Origin: a virus
IMG/VR virus record: IMGVR_UViG_3300044705_000014
Coordinates: 1 to 40,060 of that record
DNA: 40,060 nt
Strand: one strand, 5' to 3'
Positions within the stretch are counted from its first letter, which is position 1; each line of letters starts with the position of its first letter. The notes below the pieces were generated by a model that saw nothing but the letters and a program-made list of their open reading frames with translations, had not been told where the DNA came from and did not search any database. This document shows positions 27,388-40,060 of this stretch, in pieces. A program made the translations under genes and the position numbers.

Positions 27388-28299
27388 TTAGGCCAGCGTG
27401 ACCGTCGCGAGGGCGAGCGCCGAGGCGTAGTTGACCTTGCCACCGTAGAGGTGGAGGCCACGGATGCCGTCGAGGAAGCCCTCGGTCTGGAGGCGCAGAG
27501 CCTCGACCGAACTGATCTGGTCGGCGTAGGTGTGCGCCATCGGGTGGCCGAACATGCAGTGGAACGCGGAGCCGGAGACCGGAACCGTGTTCGACTCGTA
27601 CACGTTGAAGCCAGCGATGCGGCCGATGAAGCTGTCGCCTGCCGACTGACCCGGCGTGGGCGAGCTCGAGCCGTCGGAGACGTTGCCGTCACCGAGCGGC
27701 GTCGCGCCACGCCCGACCAGCTGCGGGTTCGCGACGAAGCGCGAGTCCTGGAGCAGATAGCCGGTGGCATCGGGCGGAATGACAGCCCAGCGGTCGTTGT
27801 ACGGCACGTTCGCCTTGTTGAGCTTCGTCCGAGCGGCGACGAACGCCTTCCCGTAGAAGTCCGACGCGGCGACCGTCACCGAGACAGGGCCGATGTCGTT
27901 GCCGGTGCCGTTCACCGCGGTGAGCAGGTTGGTCGCCACGTACGAATCCGCGTTCTTGACGAGGTTGTACGAGGCGCCCTGGCTCGCCTTGGCGATGAAG
28001 CCGGGCAGCGACTGGCGCTTGTCGATGTCGTCCACCGTGAAGGCGAAGTAGTCCGACTGGTTCACGACCAGCAGGTTCTCCGCGTCCGTGAGGACGTCCC
28101 ACGTGATCGGTCCGCCCTTGGTGTACGTCCGGACCGCCGGGTCCGAGAACGACACCATGTGGACCGTGTCGCCGTAGGCGCTGATGTCGCCTTCGTAGTC
28201 CCGGTTGGAGATCCCCGGTCCTGCGTAGACGAGCTGAGCGCGAAGGTTGGCCAGGATGTTCGCTGACCAGATCTTCGGCTGGAACTTGGTGATGGCCAT
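27388..28299 (-). CDS. Major capsid protein, 303 aa
   Basis: Starts MAITKFQPKIWSANILANL; GISNRDYEGDISAYGDTVHM and VDDIDKRQS are typical of P22-like coat proteins in phages of high-GC Gram-positive bacteria. HK97 fold by family. Follows the scaffold gene and precedes the glycosyltransferase, whose frame continues straight from this stop. Confidence 0.9.
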   Translation of the reverse strand: MAITKFQPKIWSANILANLRAQLVYAGPGISNRDYEGDISAYGDTVHMVSFSDPAVRTYTKGGPITWDVLTDAENLLVVNQSDYFAFTVDDIDKRQSLPGFIAKASQGASYNLVKNADSYVATNLLTAVNGTGNDIGPVSVTVAASDFYGKAFVAARTKLNKANVPYNDRWAVIPPDATGYLLQDSRFVANPQLVGRGATPLGDGNVSDGSSSPTPGQSAGDSFIGRIAGFNVYESNTVPVSGSAFHCMFGHPMAHTYADQISSVEALRLQTEGFLDGIRGLHLYGGKVNYASALALATVTLA

Positions 28300-28325
28300 T
28301 CAGCCATCTCCTTTCGGTTCGTCGG

Positions 28326-28961
28326 TCAGCTGAGCAGGTCAGCCATGCGACCTTCGGCGGTCGCCTTGGCGATCTCCTCAGCGCTCATCGTTTCGAGCTG
28401 TTCCGCGGTGACCTGACCGTCCTTGGTCGAGGTGCCGCGGGCGCCCTGGTCCACCTTCGTGGGCTGGGGCTTGCCGACGAACTCCGGGATCTGTTCGAGG
28501 AGACCCTTGACAGCCTCCTCCACGCCGCTGACCGTGCCGTCGTCGCCTACGGTCAGACCCGTCTTGTCCAGCGCGCGCAGTGCGCCATCCACGTTGGAGA
28601 CACCCTGCTTGGCGAGCTCGGCCATGGCAGAGGCACGGATGAGTGCCTCCTGCGCCCTCGCGGTGACCTCAGCAGCCTTCGCCTCGGCCTTCTCGCGTGC
28701 CGCGTTCGCCTTCTCGAGCTCCGACTGGTTGGCAGCCTCGATCTCGTCGAGGCGTTCCTTCGCCTTGCGGAGCTCGGCCAGCTCGTCCTTCGACGGCTGA
28801 CCCTTGGCCGCACGTGCCAGGCGCTCCTGCACGATGCGGTCGACCTCGGACTGCGGTAGCATCTTCTCGCCGCTGCCGCTGCCCTGTGACGAGGCCGTTC
28901 CCTCGTCGGCGGCGCCGCCTTCGGTGGCTGCGCCTTCCTGCTCGGTGGCCTCGTCGGCCAT
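28326..28961 (-). CDS. Scaffolding protein, 211 aa
   Basis: AAGGAGG lies 6 bases before the ATG at 28961. The N-terminus is Glu/Gly-rich and disordered, then a coiled coil (about 50-125, with AELRKAKERLDEIEAANQSE) and a C-terminal helix-rich coat-binding region (EQLETMSAEEIAKATAEGRM). Usual size and place for a scaffold made before the coat. It is expected to leave the head during maturation. Confidence 0.87.
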   Translation of the reverse strand: MADEATEQEGAATEGGAADEGTASSQGSGSGEKMLPQSEVDRIVQERLARAAKGQPSKDELAELRKAKERLDEIEAANQSELEKANAAREKAEAKAAEVTARAQEALIRASAMAELAKQGVSNVDGALRALDKTGLTVGDDGTVSGVEEAVKGLLEQIPEFVGKPQPTKVDQGARGTSTKDGQVTAEQLETMSAEEIAKATAEGRMADLLS

Positions 28962-29012
28962 CTTCGTCCTCCTTGGTGGAGTCATCCGGCGCTTGAACGC
29001 GCGCCGTTGCGC

Positions 29013-35046: not shown

Positions 35047-35373
35047 TCAGCTGCCTCGTGCCTCGCGCGCCGTCTTGTTGCGGTGGCACGGCGTGCCGTG
35101 GATCGGACGCATGTTGCTCTCGTCGTCTGCTCCACCTGCGGAGAGGGGGACCACGTGGTCTGCCTCGTCAGCGCCGGGCAGTCCACACACATGGCATATG
35201 CCACCGTGCCTGCGGATCACCCGCTTCGCGCGCTCCTGCTCCTGCCAGCCACTCCCCTTCCGGGGGCGTCTTTTGCGAACGTCTCGCCACGCCGGACGTG
35301 AATGCTCCTGGCAGTCGATGTTCGGGCAGCCTGGCTCAGGGCAGACGGTTGGCTTCGATGTACCGCGTGGCAT
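35047..35373 (-). CDS. HNH endonuclease next to terminase, 108 aa
   Basis: A zinc pair CHVCG, then ADHVVPLSAGG (catalytic His), and the closing N...HGTPCHRNKT. The N-terminal part adds CPEPGCPN and DCQEH. HNH proteins in this position support cos cleavage together with the terminase in many phages. It overlaps the next upstream gene by 38 bases. Confidence 0.9.
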   Translation of the reverse strand: MPRGTSKPTVCPEPGCPNIDCQEHSRPAWRDVRKRRPRKGSGWQEQERAKRVIRRHGGICHVCGLPGADEADHVVPLSAGGADDESNMRPIHGTPCHRNKTAREARGS

Positions 35374-35871: not shown

Positions 35872-36126
35872 TCACGCGCAGTCGGCGCAGACGCCTAGCA
35901 GCACGTCGTCGCTCGCTATCCCGCACCAGTCGCAGACGCCACTCAGGTCGTTCTGGCTGGGTTTGGGTGTTGCCTCGACGGGCAACTCGACTTCAGGGAC
36001 CGGCGTGCGGTCATCCCCTTCCCGCTGTCGGTCCCGCCTCTTTGCGAGCGCAGCTGCGCGGATCGCTTCGCCTTCCGGCGTGAGGCTGTCCGGCCGATCC
36101 TCGTCGTACTCGTCCCAGAAGGACAT
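35872..36126 (-). CDS. Small zinc-finger protein, 84 aa, first gene of the leftward operon
   Basis: Acidic and charged N-terminal region, then CDWCG...CADC at the C-terminus (a treble-clef-like or ribbon pair). It lies directly after the tRNA in transcription order. Possibly the first late protein; its role is unknown. Confidence 0.65.
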   Translation of the reverse strand: MSFWDEYDEDRPDSLTPEGEAIRAAALAKRRDRQREGDDRTPVPEVELPVEATPKPSQNDLSGVCDWCGIASDDVLLGVCADCA

Positions 36127-36128
36127 AG

Positions 36129-36201
36129 CTGTGGAGGCAGGGATCGAACCTGCGCGCTCCCGGTTAACAGCCGGGCGCTCTACCAGCTGAGCTACTCCAC
36201 A
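36129..36201 (-). tRNA. tRNA-Asn (anticodon GTT)
   Basis: Cloverleaf: acceptor TGTGGAG/CTCCACA, D-arm GCTC...GAGC with loop AGCTGGTA, anticodon arm CCCGG-CTGTTAA-CCGGG with GTT, variable loop of 5, and T-arm GCAGG-TTCGATC-CCTGC. Discriminator G. CCA is not encoded. All stems are perfect, so it looks functional. It lies 2 bases before the first leftward protein gene. Confidence 0.95.
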
Positions 36202-36248
36202 AGGAACGGGCTTCGGTTCATCGGCGCCCGCGAGCCGGAACGTAGAAA

Positions 36249-36328
36249 AGGCCCACCCGCACCGGCGCTTCTATCCGGCGATTCCCCGCAGGCACGAAAG
36301 CCAGCGCGGGCGAGCAACGGGTGGGCCT
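36249..36328. other. Long-stem structured element in the control region
   Basis: AGGCCCACCCG (36249-36259) pairs perfectly with CGGGTGGGCCT (36318-36328) over 11 bases. The 58-base interior holds smaller hairpins (CCGG/CCGG, and GGC-ACGAAA-GCC). On the minus strand the stem is followed by TTTCT, so it may end a leftward transcript just before the tRNA; a small RNA is another option. Confidence 0.5.
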
Positions 36329-36429
36329 GTTTGGTTCCTCTCTTCGATTTACTGGCGGGCGCCGGGTTGATTGCGCGCGTGTTCCCTCGTCCAGCGAGCC
36401 TCTTCGCGAGCCAGCACACATCGCTCATG

Positions 36430-36556
36430 CCAGAGCGACGACCGACGAGCGATGAGCGACGATCGACCGCTAGAGAGTGTTGAGCTCTGAAGCTCAGAAG
36501 GGTCTAACGCTTCAAAGGGCTTAGCTCGACGATCGACGTTCGACGCTCGTCGATCG
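36430..36556. promoter_or_regulatory. Repeat-rich control region between divergent operons
   Basis: An imperfect 14-base repeat (GAGCGACGACCGAC-like) lies from about 36433. CGACGATCGAC-type words occur near 36457, 36527 and 36548. A perfect inverted repeat CGATCGACG (36530-36538), 9 bases, CGTCGATCG (36548-36556) is the strongest element. TGAGCT-CTGA-AGCTCA is at 36481. These look like protein-binding sites for control of the divergent operons. I see no gene here. Confidence 0.5.
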
Positions 36557-36635
36557 ACCACGGATACCCCATTTGCAACCCATGTTCGTGGACTTGCTGG
36601 GCGTTCAGCATGCATCGACGGTCTTGCACAGAACT

Positions 36636-36730
36636 GCGGAAGTTTCCGTAAATAGCGGACATTTCCGCAGCCGGGGTGTTTCGCTCGATGAGGTGTTCGG
36701 CTTTGATTCGTGTTGCCATGGAAGGCAACA
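36636..36730 (+). promoter_or_regulatory. Early rightward promoter with nested operator and leader hairpin
   Basis: Operator 36636-36668: GCGGAA, 3 bases, TCCGT, AAATA, GCGGA, 3 bases, TTCCGC. A -35 box TTTCGC is at 36679-36684, with a 17-base spacer and -10 box TTTGAT at 36702-36707. A hairpin TGTTGCC/GGCAACA (36711-36730) has the ATG of the next small gene in its loop. Boxes and spacing match the 14.65 kb copy. Confidence 0.7.
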
Positions 36731-36828
36731 AGCAGCTGATCGGCAAGTGGAGCGTCCCCGGTCTTGAGGTCAAGAGGCCGCGGCCGTTCCCCGATGTCGA
36801 CAGAAGTCAACTCACGAAGGAGGACTGA
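36718..36828 (+). CDS. Leader peptide or small early protein, 36 aa
   Basis: The ATG at 36718 sits in the loop of the leader hairpin, about 10 bases past the -10 box, so the message would be nearly leaderless. It reads MEGNKQLIGKWSVPGLEVKR and ends ...KED; its stop is one base before the next gene, whose AAGGAGG lies inside it. The AAGGAGG overlap suggests coupled translation. Confidence 0.55.
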   Translation: MEGNKQLIGKWSVPGLEVKRPRPFPDVDRSQLTKED

Positions 36829-36829
36829 C

Positions 36830-37150
36830 ATGGCACGGAACGAGGCGAGGATCACGGCGATCCTCCAGCAACTAGCGGCCAGCCCGATCGACCTGGTCGG
36901 CAACTACGACGAGCAGGGCTACGCCCGGCTCCAACTCGAAGGCAAGACGCTCGCCTACGCGATCCCAGGCACCGAGCGCGTGAAGCTCGACTTCGCGACG
37001 CCGCTGGTCGAGGGCGCGCCCCAGTGGTTTCAGAAGATGTTCGAGGGCGACGACGGCGAGCGGTTCAAGTCCGGCCGCGCGAAGCTGTTCGTCACGCCGA
37101 AGAACGTGAAGGGCGCTCGGGCGCTGCTCGAGTGGGTCGCGAACCAATGA
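36830..37150 (+). CDS. Hypothetical early protein, 106 aa
   Basis: AAGGAGG 8 bases before the ATG. Alternating helices and strands (ARITAILQQLAASPIDLVGN; GYARLQLEGKTLAYAIPG; GRAKLFVTPKNVKGARALLE). No known domain. As the first full-size rightward gene it may act in takeover or regulation; nothing in the sequence proves it. Confidence 0.75.
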   Translation: MARNEARITAILQQLAASPIDLVGNYDEQGYARLQLEGKTLAYAIPGTERVKLDFATPLVEGAPQWFQKMFEGDDGERFKSGRAKLFVTPKNVKGARALLEWVANQ

Positions 37151-37353
37151 TGAGACGGGCACGCATCCACGAGCGGCTGGAGACCTTGGTCGGGGAAGGG
37201 ATCATCCGCGACTTCTATGTGCAGGGCAACATGCCGGGCCTCCGCTGGACGCTGCTCGGCCGTGGATGGGATCGCACCTACACGACCGTCGAGATCGAAG
37301 CGTTCCTTGACGGCGTAGCGCTCGGACATCGCACGCTGGTGTACGGGCGATGA
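37147..37353 (+). CDS. Hypothetical early protein, 68 aa
   Basis: ATG at 37147 overlaps the previous stop as ATGA. A basic N-terminal helix (RRARIHERLETLVGEGIIRD) is followed by a beta-rich segment (GLRWTLLGRGWDRTYTTVEI). No family. Confidence 0.7.
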   Translation: MMRRARIHERLETLVGEGIIRDFYVQGNMPGLRWTLLGRGWDRTYTTVEIEAFLDGVALGHRTLVYGR

Positions 37354-37787
37354 AGCACTCGCTCGACAAGGGGACGCAGGTGCAGCAGGCGCTGCGCGCG
37401 CTCGAAGGTGAAGCCGCGCAGCGCGGTGCTGCCCGCGTGATGAACGAGGCCCGCGAGCGGCGCGACTTCGCGCAGGAGCAGCGGGCCTCCGCGCTGTACG
37501 AGGAGCTACGGCTTCTGGACCGCAAGCAGCTGGCCGAGCTCGCCGGATACGACGCGCCAAGGCAACAGCTGATCGCGCAGATCATCGAAGCTGATGCAAA
37601 TGGACTCTTGGCAACTCAACCCCTCGGAAGGGGGGTTTTCGCGGACCAGGGGAAACGCGATAGTTGCTCTTACCTTGACCGCTGCGGCCGCACGCACGAG
37701 TCTCCGACGCCTGGTCCTGACCACCTTGATGGTCAGCGTGACGGCGTCGCCCGTCGTGGCAAAGGCGAACGCAGCGATGCGGCCTAA
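37350..37787 (+). CDS. Helical early protein, 145 aa, with an unusual tail over an RNA hairpin
   Basis: ATGA overlap with the gene before. Residues 1-85 are clearly coding: a charged helix (ALRALEGEAAQRGAARVMNE onward) ending QQLIAQIIEADANG. From residue about 90 the frame runs through the hairpin at 37618-37639 and 150 more bases with weak coding character. The true protein may end there by sequence change, or the message may be cut short by the hairpin. The N-terminal part is well supported, the C-terminal part not. Confidence 0.65.
   Translation: MKHSLDKGTQVQQALRALEGEAAQRGAARVMNEARERRDFAQEQRASALYEELRLLDRKQLAELAGYDAPRQQLIAQIIEADANGLLATQPLGRGVFADQGKRDSCSYLDRCGRTHESPTPGPDHLDGQRDGVARRGKGERSDAA
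37618..37639 (+). terminator. Hairpin with T-run, likely terminator or attenuator
   Basis: AACCCC TC, loop GGAA, GG GGGGTT followed by TTTT (six pairs plus two less stable). It sits inside the reading frame of the gene at 37350 and directly before the gene-free structured region. It overlaps a TTTCGC box at 37637-37642 that, with GATAGT 16 bases later, could start a transcript there. Confidence 0.6.
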
Positions 37788-38039
37788 CCTGCCGCGACAT
37801 CACGTCCCTGGGCACTGCGGGCCACGAGCGCACCGGCTGCACCGGGCACAGCGCCACCGACCTAACGGGGACGGCAGTGGTCACCACGATGGCGCGTTCG
37901 CATGGTGGCCCGGCAACGCGAAAGTGATTCTGGCGCCTGGTGGCCTATCGCGTCGTGACATCTTCGGCGCGACGGGTCGTCTACCGGCGCGCGTTCGACC
38001 CGACCAAGCTCGCGCGCCTTAGTTCGCCGCGACCAGGCA
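37640..38039 (+). other. Gene-poor stretch with helices, possible 5' part of the structured RNA
   Basis: GGACCAGG (37643-37650) pairs with CCTGGTCC (37710-37717). TGACCA, loop CCTTGA, TGGTCA lies at 37718-37735. CGTCCC (37803-37808) pairs with GGGACG (37868-37873). An H-type pseudoknot is at 37974-38018: GGGTCG/CGACCC interlaced with GGCGCGCG/CGCGCGCC. A reading frame at 37594-38022 has a signal-peptide-like start, but its codon use is unlike real genes here. Confidence 0.45.
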
Positions 38040-38500
38040 GCGCACGTTGACCGCGACCCCTCGTGAGGGCGGGTAGGTAGCGGAAGCAGCAACGCCGAGG
38101 ACACGGGTCTACCCGGACCGGAGTCGGAAGCTCAGTCCGGGCGCTGAGGGCATCAGCGACTAACTAAACCAGGGACGTGCACAGGGCTTAGCCCTGGTCC
38201 CGAGATTGCCGGCCACCTGCCGAAGCAGGTGCCAGAAGGGAGTGACCGGTGCAACGGTCAGCGGACCCCGCGGGTGCAACCGCGGTCCAAAACAGTGGTC
38301 CCCAGGGCCAAGCGCGCTTTGGAGGGACCGACCATACACCGGATCCGCGGCCTGCGAAAGGCCCGGAGTCCGTTGAAAGCGCTGGCCATTCCCAGCGCCT
38401 AGCTCGCGGAGAGCTCCAGCCGAGCAGCGAGGACGACCGGGCAATCAACCCGGCTCGCGCCAGTAACTCGGTGAGAGAGCAAACCGAGTTCCGCGAGCTG
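38040..38500 (+). ncRNA. Large structured noncoding RNA, unrecognised class
   Basis: Helices in order: CCCGGAC/GTCCGGG (38112-38141); CGCTGA/TCAGCG (38142-38158); GGGAC/GTCCC around CAGGGC-TTA-GCCCTG (38172-38201); CACCTGC-CGAA-GCAGGTG (38214-38231); TGACCG/CGGTCA (38243-38260) and CCGCGG/CCGCGG (38268-38285), both capped by GTGCAA; GGTCCC/GGGACC (38297-38329); a bulged 13-bp stem capped by GCGAA (38340-38372); GCGCTGG/CCAGCGC (38379-38398). The 3' domain is closed by AGCTCGCGG/CCGCGAGCT (38401-38409, 38491-38499) and encloses GCTC/GAGC, a GCGAG/CTCGC arm with CCGGG hairpin, and AACTCGGT/ACCGAGTT. It ends one base before the next ATG. No open frame fits. It is either a free RNA or a giant leader of the gene at 38501. 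Confidence 0.65.
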
Positions 38501-39004
38501 ATGGAAGAGCCGCCTGGTGGCGTCAACACCGGGCGCGCGGCTTCCCGTGATCCCAACGTCGAAGGGCGCTTCGTCGCGCTCGGCGTCGCAGAGGCACAGG
38601 CTGCCGAGTTCGCCCGCGAGGGCGGCTGGTCGCTGGCGCAGCCCCACGCCAAGGGTCGCTATGGCGATAGCACTGGCGGGCTGACAGCCCATCGCGGCGT
38701 CCTTCAGGGCGACGAATACGTCGACGCCTCAGCGCTTCTCAAGGGCATCGAGGCCGAGTTCGGGTTCACAGTCGAGCAGGTGCGCTCCGTCTACCGGCGT
38801 GGCCGGTTGACGGCGTTAGAGGGCGAGCTCCGCGTGCAGATCGATGCGCGGCTGCTCGCCCTTTCTCGTTCCGGCGCCAATCTAGCGGTGTTGGCGCGCA
38901 TCTTCGGGTTGACCTACGACCCGACGCGCCGCACCTACGAAGTCGTCGAGCGCGCGCTCGCTCGCGCCAAAGCAGCGGAGCTCCAGACCGAAGGGAGCCA
39001 CTGA
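38501..39004 (+). CDS. HTH-containing early protein, 167 aa, downstream of the structured RNA
   Basis: I chose the ATG at 38501, because the frame upstream passes through the RNA helices and has odd composition. There is no Shine-Dalgarno site; the RNA's last helix occupies that place. The C-terminal part (ALSRSGANLAVLARIFGLTY and VVERALARAKA) is a helix-turn-helix-like unit. The middle has GDEYVDASALLKGIEAEFGF. It could be a regulator whose translation the RNA controls, or simply its neighbour. Confidence 0.7.
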   Translation: MEEPPGGVNTGRAASRDPNVEGRFVALGVAEAQAAEFAREGGWSLAQPHAKGRYGDSTGGLTAHRGVLQGDEYVDASALLKGIEAEFGFTVEQVRSVYRRGRLTALEGELRVQIDARLLALSRSGANLAVLARIFGLTYDPTRRTYEVVERALARAKAAELQTEGSH

Positions 39005-39135
39005 TGTGGTGGGACGACGAGCCCTGGTCGGACGACGACGCGGGCGAAGACCCCTACTACCAGCACGCGGGCGGAGTCGATCCGTGGGACGTCGCGCTCG
39101 CCGAGTTGAACGAGCCCGAGGAGGTGACGGCGTGA
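39004..39135 (+). CDS. Small acidic protein, 43 aa
   Basis: ATG overlapping the previous stop (TGATG), GTGA overlap with the next. Begins MWWDDEPWSDDDAGEDPYYQ, strongly acidic and Trp-rich, of the type seen in DNA-mimic or small inhibitor proteins. Function unknown. Confidence 0.6.
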   Translation: MWWDDEPWSDDDAGEDPYYQHAGGVDPWDVALAELNEPEEVTA

Positions 39136-39561: not shown

Positions 39562-39875
39562 GCCACACCTACGAGCAGCTGCTCCGGTCCGGCCGCGATG
39601 GCGACAAGTCGGTCATCATCAAGATGACGGCTCGGCAGGTCGCGATCGTCGAGTTGATCGTCGACGCAGCCGTCGACTTCGGCGTAGGAACGGAATGCCT
39701 CGCCGCGGTTGCCGACGTGCTGGGCATGGAGGGCGCTGAGCGCGCCCTGCTGGAGTTCAACATCGCGCAGAAGCGCATCGGCATCGCGATGTGCCGCGTG
39801 ATGGGCGACCACGACTACGCGGCGCAGCTGACGGCCGACCTCGCGCGGCTGGACGGGGAGGTGGCTGGCCTGTGA
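39558..39875 (+). CDS. Hypothetical helical early protein, 105 aa
   Basis: ATGA overlap at both ends. Helical throughout (TARQVAIVELIVDAAVDFGV, ECLAAVADVLGMEGAERALL). No motif is known. The last bases are repeated at 1-17. Confidence 0.7.
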   Translation: MSHTYEQLLRSGRDGDKSVIIKMTARQVAIVELIVDAAVDFGVGTECLAAVADVLGMEGAERALLEFNIAQKRIGIAMCRVMGDHDYAAQLTADLARLDGEVAGL

Positions 39876-40060
39876 CCGACCTCCAGCTGATCTACCTCAA
39901 CGCGCGGGCCAAGGGCATGAAGCACCGCGCCGCCGTGGACCACGTGTCCCGCGAGACGGGCATCGACTCCGGCTCTGTCGCCCGAGCGCTGGCGCGCGCC
40001 AAGCGTGCCGATGAGCGCGACGAGCGGCAGCGGAAGCGCGAGGCCGCAGCATGACCGTCT
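39859..40060. repeat. Terminal direct repeat, right copy
   Basis: Right copy of the overlap described for 1-202, with T at 39976 instead of C. It shows that the window closes into a circle. Confidence 0.95.
39872..40054 (+). CDS. Second copy of the 60-aa helix-turn-helix-like protein
   Basis: Same gene as at 14-196, present because the circular genome is written with an overlap. GTG start in a GTGA overlap; an ATG upstream at 39791 lies inside the previous gene and is not the start. The protein is identical. Confidence 0.75.
   Translation: MTDLQLIYLNARAKGMKHRAAVDHVSRETGIDSGSVARALARAKRADERDERQRKREAAA

Follow-up and report, generated by a model that had tools for sequence, protein, structure and literature searches.

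The segment 38040-38500 of the window (the whole 40,060-nt stretch of virus record IMGVR_UViG_3300044705_000014 that was analysed) holds, as judged by comparison with a related phage, a conserved RNA fold with a core at about 38171-38329. It probably belongs to an early phage mRNA, as a structured leader and translation-initiation region that acts in cis on its gene, and most likely it controls when this gene of 251 codons is translated. On the evidence of its two copies, the element appears as a new, narrowly distributed and previously uncatalogued structured mRNA leader. The original prediction of a large structured RNA of unknown class therefore stands for the conserved fold and the absence of an Rfam family, but not for a large stand-alone molecule.

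Genome organisation and host

The window has 202-bp terminal repeats (1-202 and 39859-40060, 99.5% identical) and thus represents a phage genome of about 39.86 kb that is either complete or circularly permuted. The late genes, encoding the terminase, portal, capsid and tail proteins, are directed leftward, while the replication block is directed rightward; the segment is located among the genes of this rightward, early-strand block, in agreement with its predicted position in a phage early operon. The host is probably an actinobacterium, since relatives of the terminase occur in actinobacterial phages and prophages, the nearest genome being in Thermoleophilia.

The tRNA-Asn gene that had been noted 2 kb away is present (36128-36201), but on the opposite strand; it precedes the RNA by about 2-2.4 kb. 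In the related phage G444 (described below) a tRNA-Met gene (L243 4843-4915) occupies a similar place, also on the opposite strand and about 2-2.4 kb before the RNA. An HNH endonuclease gene (35047-35373, minus strand; PF01844, E 2.7e-9) is found just before the packaging genes. The noncoding strand-switch region 36401-36600 also folds strongly (z = -6.1 on the plus and -5.5 on the minus strand) and contains repeated GACGATCGAC-like motifs, making it a candidate regulatory or origin region. Near the strand switch, 36338-36377 on the minus strand matches 38438-38477 on the plus strand (40 nt, 85% identity to the reverse complement, E 2e-7), which may reflect a shared binding site or an old inverted copy. 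The gene at 37350 gradually loses its coding signal past about 37610 (region 37594-38022), a terminator-like hairpin (AACCCC..GGGGTTTT) is visible by eye just after this point at about 37617-37640, and over about 600 bases ahead of the RNA no coding frame is clear.

Folding of the segment

All of the helices quoted in the original prediction were located, namely, CACCTGC-CGAA-GCAGGTG (38214-38231), AACTCGGT/ACCGAGTT (38465-38490), GCGCTGG/CCAGCGC (38379-38398) and the 9-bp closing helix AGCTCGCGG/CCGCGAGCT (38401-38409/38491-38499). With a stem defined as perfect, at least 6 bp long and having a loop of 3-12 nt, the segment contains seven that do not overlap, with 46 bp paired, while its dinucleotide shuffles contain 1.23 +/- 1.05 and none of the 300 reaches seven. 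This bears out the claim that the helices exceed what chance produces in GC-rich DNA, and the segment has the highest stem density of the entire 40-kb phage genome, scanned in sliding intervals.

The folding energy of 38020-38510 (491 nt) is -232.8 kcal/mol, with z = -4.3 on the plus strand against -2.6 on the minus strand; the plus strand is the preferred folding strand of the segment. Among 400-nt intervals, 38101-38500 (plus) was third of 198 genome-wide, and the 200-nt intervals 38201-38400 and 38301-38500 reached z = -5.1 and -4.7 on the same strand. However, the energy alone is suggestive rather than decisive, because seven other 200-nt intervals of this GC-rich genome have a lower z than the segment. 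The most stable 400-nt stretch genome-wide, on both strands, is 28101-28500, where a putative capsid gene (27388-28299) adjoins the gene 28326-28985.

Table 1. Features of the structured leader and of the gene that starts within it (window coordinates unless stated otherwise)
Feature	Position	Strand	Evidence or remark
Conserved core of structured RNA	38171-38329	+	blastn, covariance model R1, conserved AGGGACGYGCACRGGGC and CCTGGTCCC
G444 counterpart of core	~17019-16862 (G444)	-	
Helix P0	38172-38201	+	pair probability at least 0.95 in window
P0 outer arms GGGAC/GTCCC	38172-38176/38197-38201		
P0 inner arms CAGGGC/GCCCTG	38182-38187/38191-38196		
Closing helix P1	38196-38329	+	GGTCCC (38196-38201) with GGGACC (38324-38329); encloses hairpins A-D
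Hairpin A, GG-CACCTGC/GCAGGTG-CC	38211-38233	+	three double changes in relative
Shine-Dalgarno (SD) sequence AGAAGGGAG	38234-38242	+	9 bases identical in G444
Hairpin B, TGACCG/CGGTCA	38243-38260	+	start GTG in loop; two double changes
Gene, 251 codons	38249-39004	+	tblastn; predicted start inside RNA at GTG 38249
Hairpin C, core CGCGG-GYGCAA-CCGCG	38263-38288	+	nearly identical in both phages
Hairpin D, CCAGGGC/GCTTTGG	38302-38322	+	CCAGGG/CCCTGG in G444
Hairpin F, GCGCTGG/CCAGCGC	38379-38398	+	counterparts in G444 and G443
Hairpin G	38465-38490	+	in all three phages; within coding sequence
Hairpin G closing helix	38401-38409/38491-38499	+	within coding sequence

Conservation in related phages

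Two related phages, G444 (IMG/VR 3300005529_000064) and G443 (IMG/VR 3300043331_000758), were found through the phage DNA polymerase (66% and 70% identity). The element is known in two copies, those of the window phage and G444; the latter matches 38232-38307 by blastn with E = 2.8e-9. In G444 it occupies the same place, directly upstream of the homolog of the same gene, and the surrounding synteny is kept, with homologs of 36830-37147 before the element and of the gene at about 39260 after it, in the same order. Conservation between the two phages covers about 38171-38329 and continues as scattered hairpins to 38499, while none was seen with G444 in the 5' third of the segment (38040-38170). 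G443 retains the gene (54% identity) but not the leader, and the start there consists instead of a plain strong SD sequence (AGGAGG) and ATG508.

The core is organised in both phages as the same series of anchors, AGGGACGYGCACRGGGC, CCTGGTCCC, a 30-nt spacer, CCAGAAGGGAG, a 24-25-nt spacer and CCCGCGGGYGCAACCGCGGTCCARAAC. The two spacers differ in sequence between the phages, yet in each a perfect hairpin of 6-7 bp occupies the same position. Between identical anchors, hairpin A is represented in G444 by the perfect 6-bp stem CCCGCC/GGCGGG, and hairpin B by CGACGG/CCGTCG with the GTG kept in the loop; the coincidence of both in shuffled G444 spacers has a probability of about 0.0044 x 0.023 = 1e-4. 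Hairpins D, F and G follow in the same order as in the window, and G444 has six stems in total compared with 1.34 +/- 0.98 in its shuffles.

The covariance model R1, built from the window alone, recognised G444 with 56.4 bits (E 4.6e-14), while the sequence-only model gave 35.3 bits, so that the structure adds 21 bits; the best chance match of the window-only model in 399 genomes had 26.8 bits. In the model-guided alignment of the two phages 95% of cells pair, and five pairs are altered on both sides yet still pair, three of them in hairpin A and two in hairpin B. No double compensatory change is left when the partners are slid by 1-3 columns. Compensatory changes of the kind expected of a structured RNA are present in G444, but the statistics are thin and the column-shuffle control, in which 17 of 500 shuffles reached the observed count of double changes, is weak, because there are two sequences only. 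The alignment leans towards structure, although both spacers, flanked by identical anchors, are readable by eye.

The helices P0 and P1 use the same bases (38196-38201) and are therefore mutually exclusive. The 5' arm of P0, AGGGACGYGCAC, is common to the window and G444, and P0 can be paired by inspection in G444 as AGGGAC/GTCCCT, which the thermodynamic model does not favour. P1 was aligned identically in both phages by the covariance model; it is not thermodynamically favoured in longer folds (351 and 330 nt), where P0 is favoured in the window and neither helix in G444.

Hairpins F and G are also found in G443, inside the coding sequence. Stems of the coding half do not exceed a synonymous-codon null, P being about 0.15 both in the window and in G443, and these two hairpins are weakly supported. 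The expectation that homologs preserve the helices holds in G444 for hairpins A, B, C and the closing helix, with F and G weak.

A probable gene start within the RNA

Contrary to the statement that no reading frame fits the segment, a plus-strand frame beginning at GTG 38249 is open through its second half and runs into the downstream gene, 251 codons in all; the corresponding frame is also open in G444. In the first 20 or so codons 70% of the amino acids are identical; a conserved protein frame is thus present and the RNA is partly coding. With the 251-codon gene as the query, tblastn found G444 over amino acids 6-246 (44% identity) and G443 over amino acids 42-246 (54%), in open frames, and the C-terminal part of the gene is conserved in the three phages (alignment A4).

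The pairing of AGAAGGGAG with the anti-SD sequence, which we take to be the usual actinobacterial 16S 3' end and which may not be that of the host, was scored at -13.2 kcal/mol, within the strongest 0.27% of the regions upstream of ATG and GTG codons in the genome and resembling the sites of clear genes. The same nine SD bases precede a GTG in G444 (-12.3 kcal/mol), and the combined SD and GTG are among the strongest 0.3% and 0.5% of sites. No SD sequence was found at the internal starts, which are GTG 38471 and ATG 38501 in the window and internal ATG codons in G444 and G443. By chance alone, the two frames would both be open with a probability of about 0.18 x 0.37. Against a start at GTG 38249, the codon positions in 38249-38470 and in the G444 extension do not have a coding-like composition, which is to be expected if the RNA structure also constrains the sequence. 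Hairpin C encodes the peptide PAGATAVQN, which is conserved with third-position changes. Because a strong SD sequence, the GTG and the open frame are conserved and an internal SD is absent, the gene is taken to start inside the RNA, and translation would begin at GTG 38249. In this arrangement hairpin A is upstream of the ribosome-binding site, the loop of hairpin B carries the GTG, and the first codons form hairpin C.

The predicted structure of the 251-aa product has a confident helical C-terminal half, the only part predicted with confidence. The fold search of the product gave no match, and the family search identified no Pfam and no clear PHROG family. A helix-turn-helix-like pattern can be discerned by eye in the C-terminal half, and one may guess that the product is a DNA-binding regulator.

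Database searches

At the gathering score, Rfam cmscan recovered the tRNA and no other family, and at E up to 10 nothing rose above chance; the segment lies outside any known family, as had been suspected. In the G444 region, no GOLLD, ROOL, riboswitch or leader match was obtained, either at the gathering score or at E up to 5. The candidates seen at E up to 10, sul1 RNA, AgrB and other Rfam families, scored 15-18 bits against gathering scores of 36-40 and were rejected, and group I and II introns, RNase P, tmRNA and riboswitches gave no Rfam signal.

A DNA search with the segment in phage and plasmid records found no match, and none of the 27 viral records containing terminase relatives matches it, most of them being fragments without the region. 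The window-only model found four matches at E up to 0.01 in 399 Thermoleophilia genomes, equal to the chance number, and with the two-sequence model 396 Actinomycetota genomes and 307 further ones yielded no match at E 0.001. The protein alignment found nothing in the 399 Thermoleophilia genomes, and in the viral scan the same two phages, G444 and G443, and no others.

Several isolated similarities were discarded. The first protein query (38501-39001) gave three spurious matches, all on FAREGGW; a 41-nt match in G010 is ordinary GC-rich sequence and was taken as chance; and the 17-base pattern GCGACTAACTAAACCAG had one match, also attributed to chance, in an unrelated AT-richer sequence beside a TGAT repeat. 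A Thermoleophilia acyl-CoA-ligase-like gene is 83% identical over 47 nt with no extended similarity, about 0.03 such matches being expected by chance in 399 genomes. Kissing between two GUGCAA loops was considered and dropped, because the loop of hairpin B is not kept in the relative and the 77 pattern matches are collagen-like or tandem repeats.

Alternative explanations

The element could act in cis on transcription, modifying RNA polymerase in the manner of the put RNA of phage HK022 or attenuating through P0 and P1, so that the downstream early genes are read through. Its position in the early-strand block, the chain of hairpins that a nascent transcript would form and the exclusive P0 and P1 agree with this, and put RNA is a known precedent (PMC9378689). 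Nevertheless, this mechanism is unlikely: no terminator-like site was found in 36100-39100, the element extends into the coding sequence, and the presence of a conserved SD sequence and GTG within the fold argues for translation.

The predicted resemblance to GOLLD and ROOL would imply a stand-alone trans-acting RNA, serving as a decoy, cage or scaffold, whose overlap with the gene start is incidental. The many hairpins, the phage origin, the lack of an Rfam family and the tRNA gene within about 2.4 kb in both phages are compatible with such an RNA, which we consider distinctly unlikely nonetheless, since the conserved core is only about 160 nt long, includes the conserved SD sequence and GTG and so overlaps the gene start, and sequence conservation is low outside it. 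The neighbourhood does not resemble theirs either, as instead of a tRNA island there is a single tRNA gene, encoded on the other strand and differing in kind between the two phages (Asn and Met), and the element is absent from G443, which keeps the gene.

Little credence can be given to the view that chance hairpins in GC-rich DNA, together with ordinary conservation of a coding 5' end, account for the observations with no selected RNA structure. The seven other 200-nt intervals with z as low or lower, the synonymous-codon shuffles and the third-position changes in PAGATAVQN speak for it, but hairpin A, with its compensatory changes, is upstream of the start codon, the stem of hairpin B changes while the GTG stays, and the structure-aware model gains 21 bits. 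Finally, a DNA-level element, such as operators of the adjacent protein or a replication origin with palindromes that only resemble RNA hairpins, is highly improbable: the neighbouring protein may bind DNA and the arms are perfectly palindromic, but they differ among hairpins and between phages, unlike repeated operators, the plus strand folds better than the minus strand, and hairpin D requires G-U pairs, which form on the plus strand only.

Proposed function of the leader

Control of translation initiation, the preferred reading, draws on the position of the ribosome-binding sequence between hairpins A and B and on the helix around the start codon, hairpin B, which is kept by compensatory change while the SD sequence and the GTG are conserved. 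Thermodynamic folding of the whole leader speaks against this reading, in that the P1-closed form is not favoured and hairpin B reaches only about 11% in the window. A start codon in a 6-bp hairpin beside a second strong hairpin is within the usual 30S footprint, and therefore the closed form should reduce initiation. With hairpins B and C closed, the 30S subunit would be blocked from the start codon and the gene would be silent or expressed at a low level; opening of the structure would turn translation on, or its binding and locking would turn it off. The trigger could be a protein, namely, the product of the gene itself or a different RNA-binding protein of phage or host origin. Alternatively, it could be the arrival of an upstream ribosome, an exchange between P0 and P1, which exclude each other, or the use of a shorter transcript starting within the leader. 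The product would be a small protein whose helical C-terminal domain, judging from the sequence pattern, may bind DNA. The plain AGGAGG and ATG of G443 look as if a regulated start had been swapped for a plain one.

A more specific possibility, tentative and rather improbable, is a new class of phage RNA switch, in which a multi-hairpin domain with exclusive P0 and P1 presents or hides the start site in response to a signal. A phage or host signal would in this way gate access to an early regulator's ribosome site and its start codon. There are few phages in which the timing of early gene expression by a structured leader has been elucidated, and G443, having the same gene with a plain ribosome site, is a natural knock-out that makes the function directly testable with reporters. 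The case also teaches that a rich-looking 'orphan ncRNA' may be the start of a gene.

Comparison with known phage RNAs

GOLLD and ROOL are large RNAs (many GOLLD exceed 800 nt), are often located by tRNA islands and match Rfam profiles (PMC12286853). The element described here is likewise phage-encoded and rich in helices, and its protein partner, like theirs, is not known; unlike them, it is not large, has no tRNA island and matches no Rfam profile. The put RNA of phage HK022 acts on RNA polymerase (PMC9378689); the two are alike in being structured cis elements read with phage early genes, and differ in that the element here overlaps a conserved SD sequence and start codon. Close parallels are the translation-initiation structures and operators of phage T4, which include those of genes e, soc, 49 and I-TevI and the autocontrol of gp43 and gp32 (PMC3014915). 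As in T4, helices surround the start codon and ribosome site in a phage mRNA, and a hairpin is located upstream of the ribosome site; unlike the simpler T4 examples, several hairpins and a closing helix extend here from the leader into the coding sequence, and the GTG lies in a hairpin loop.
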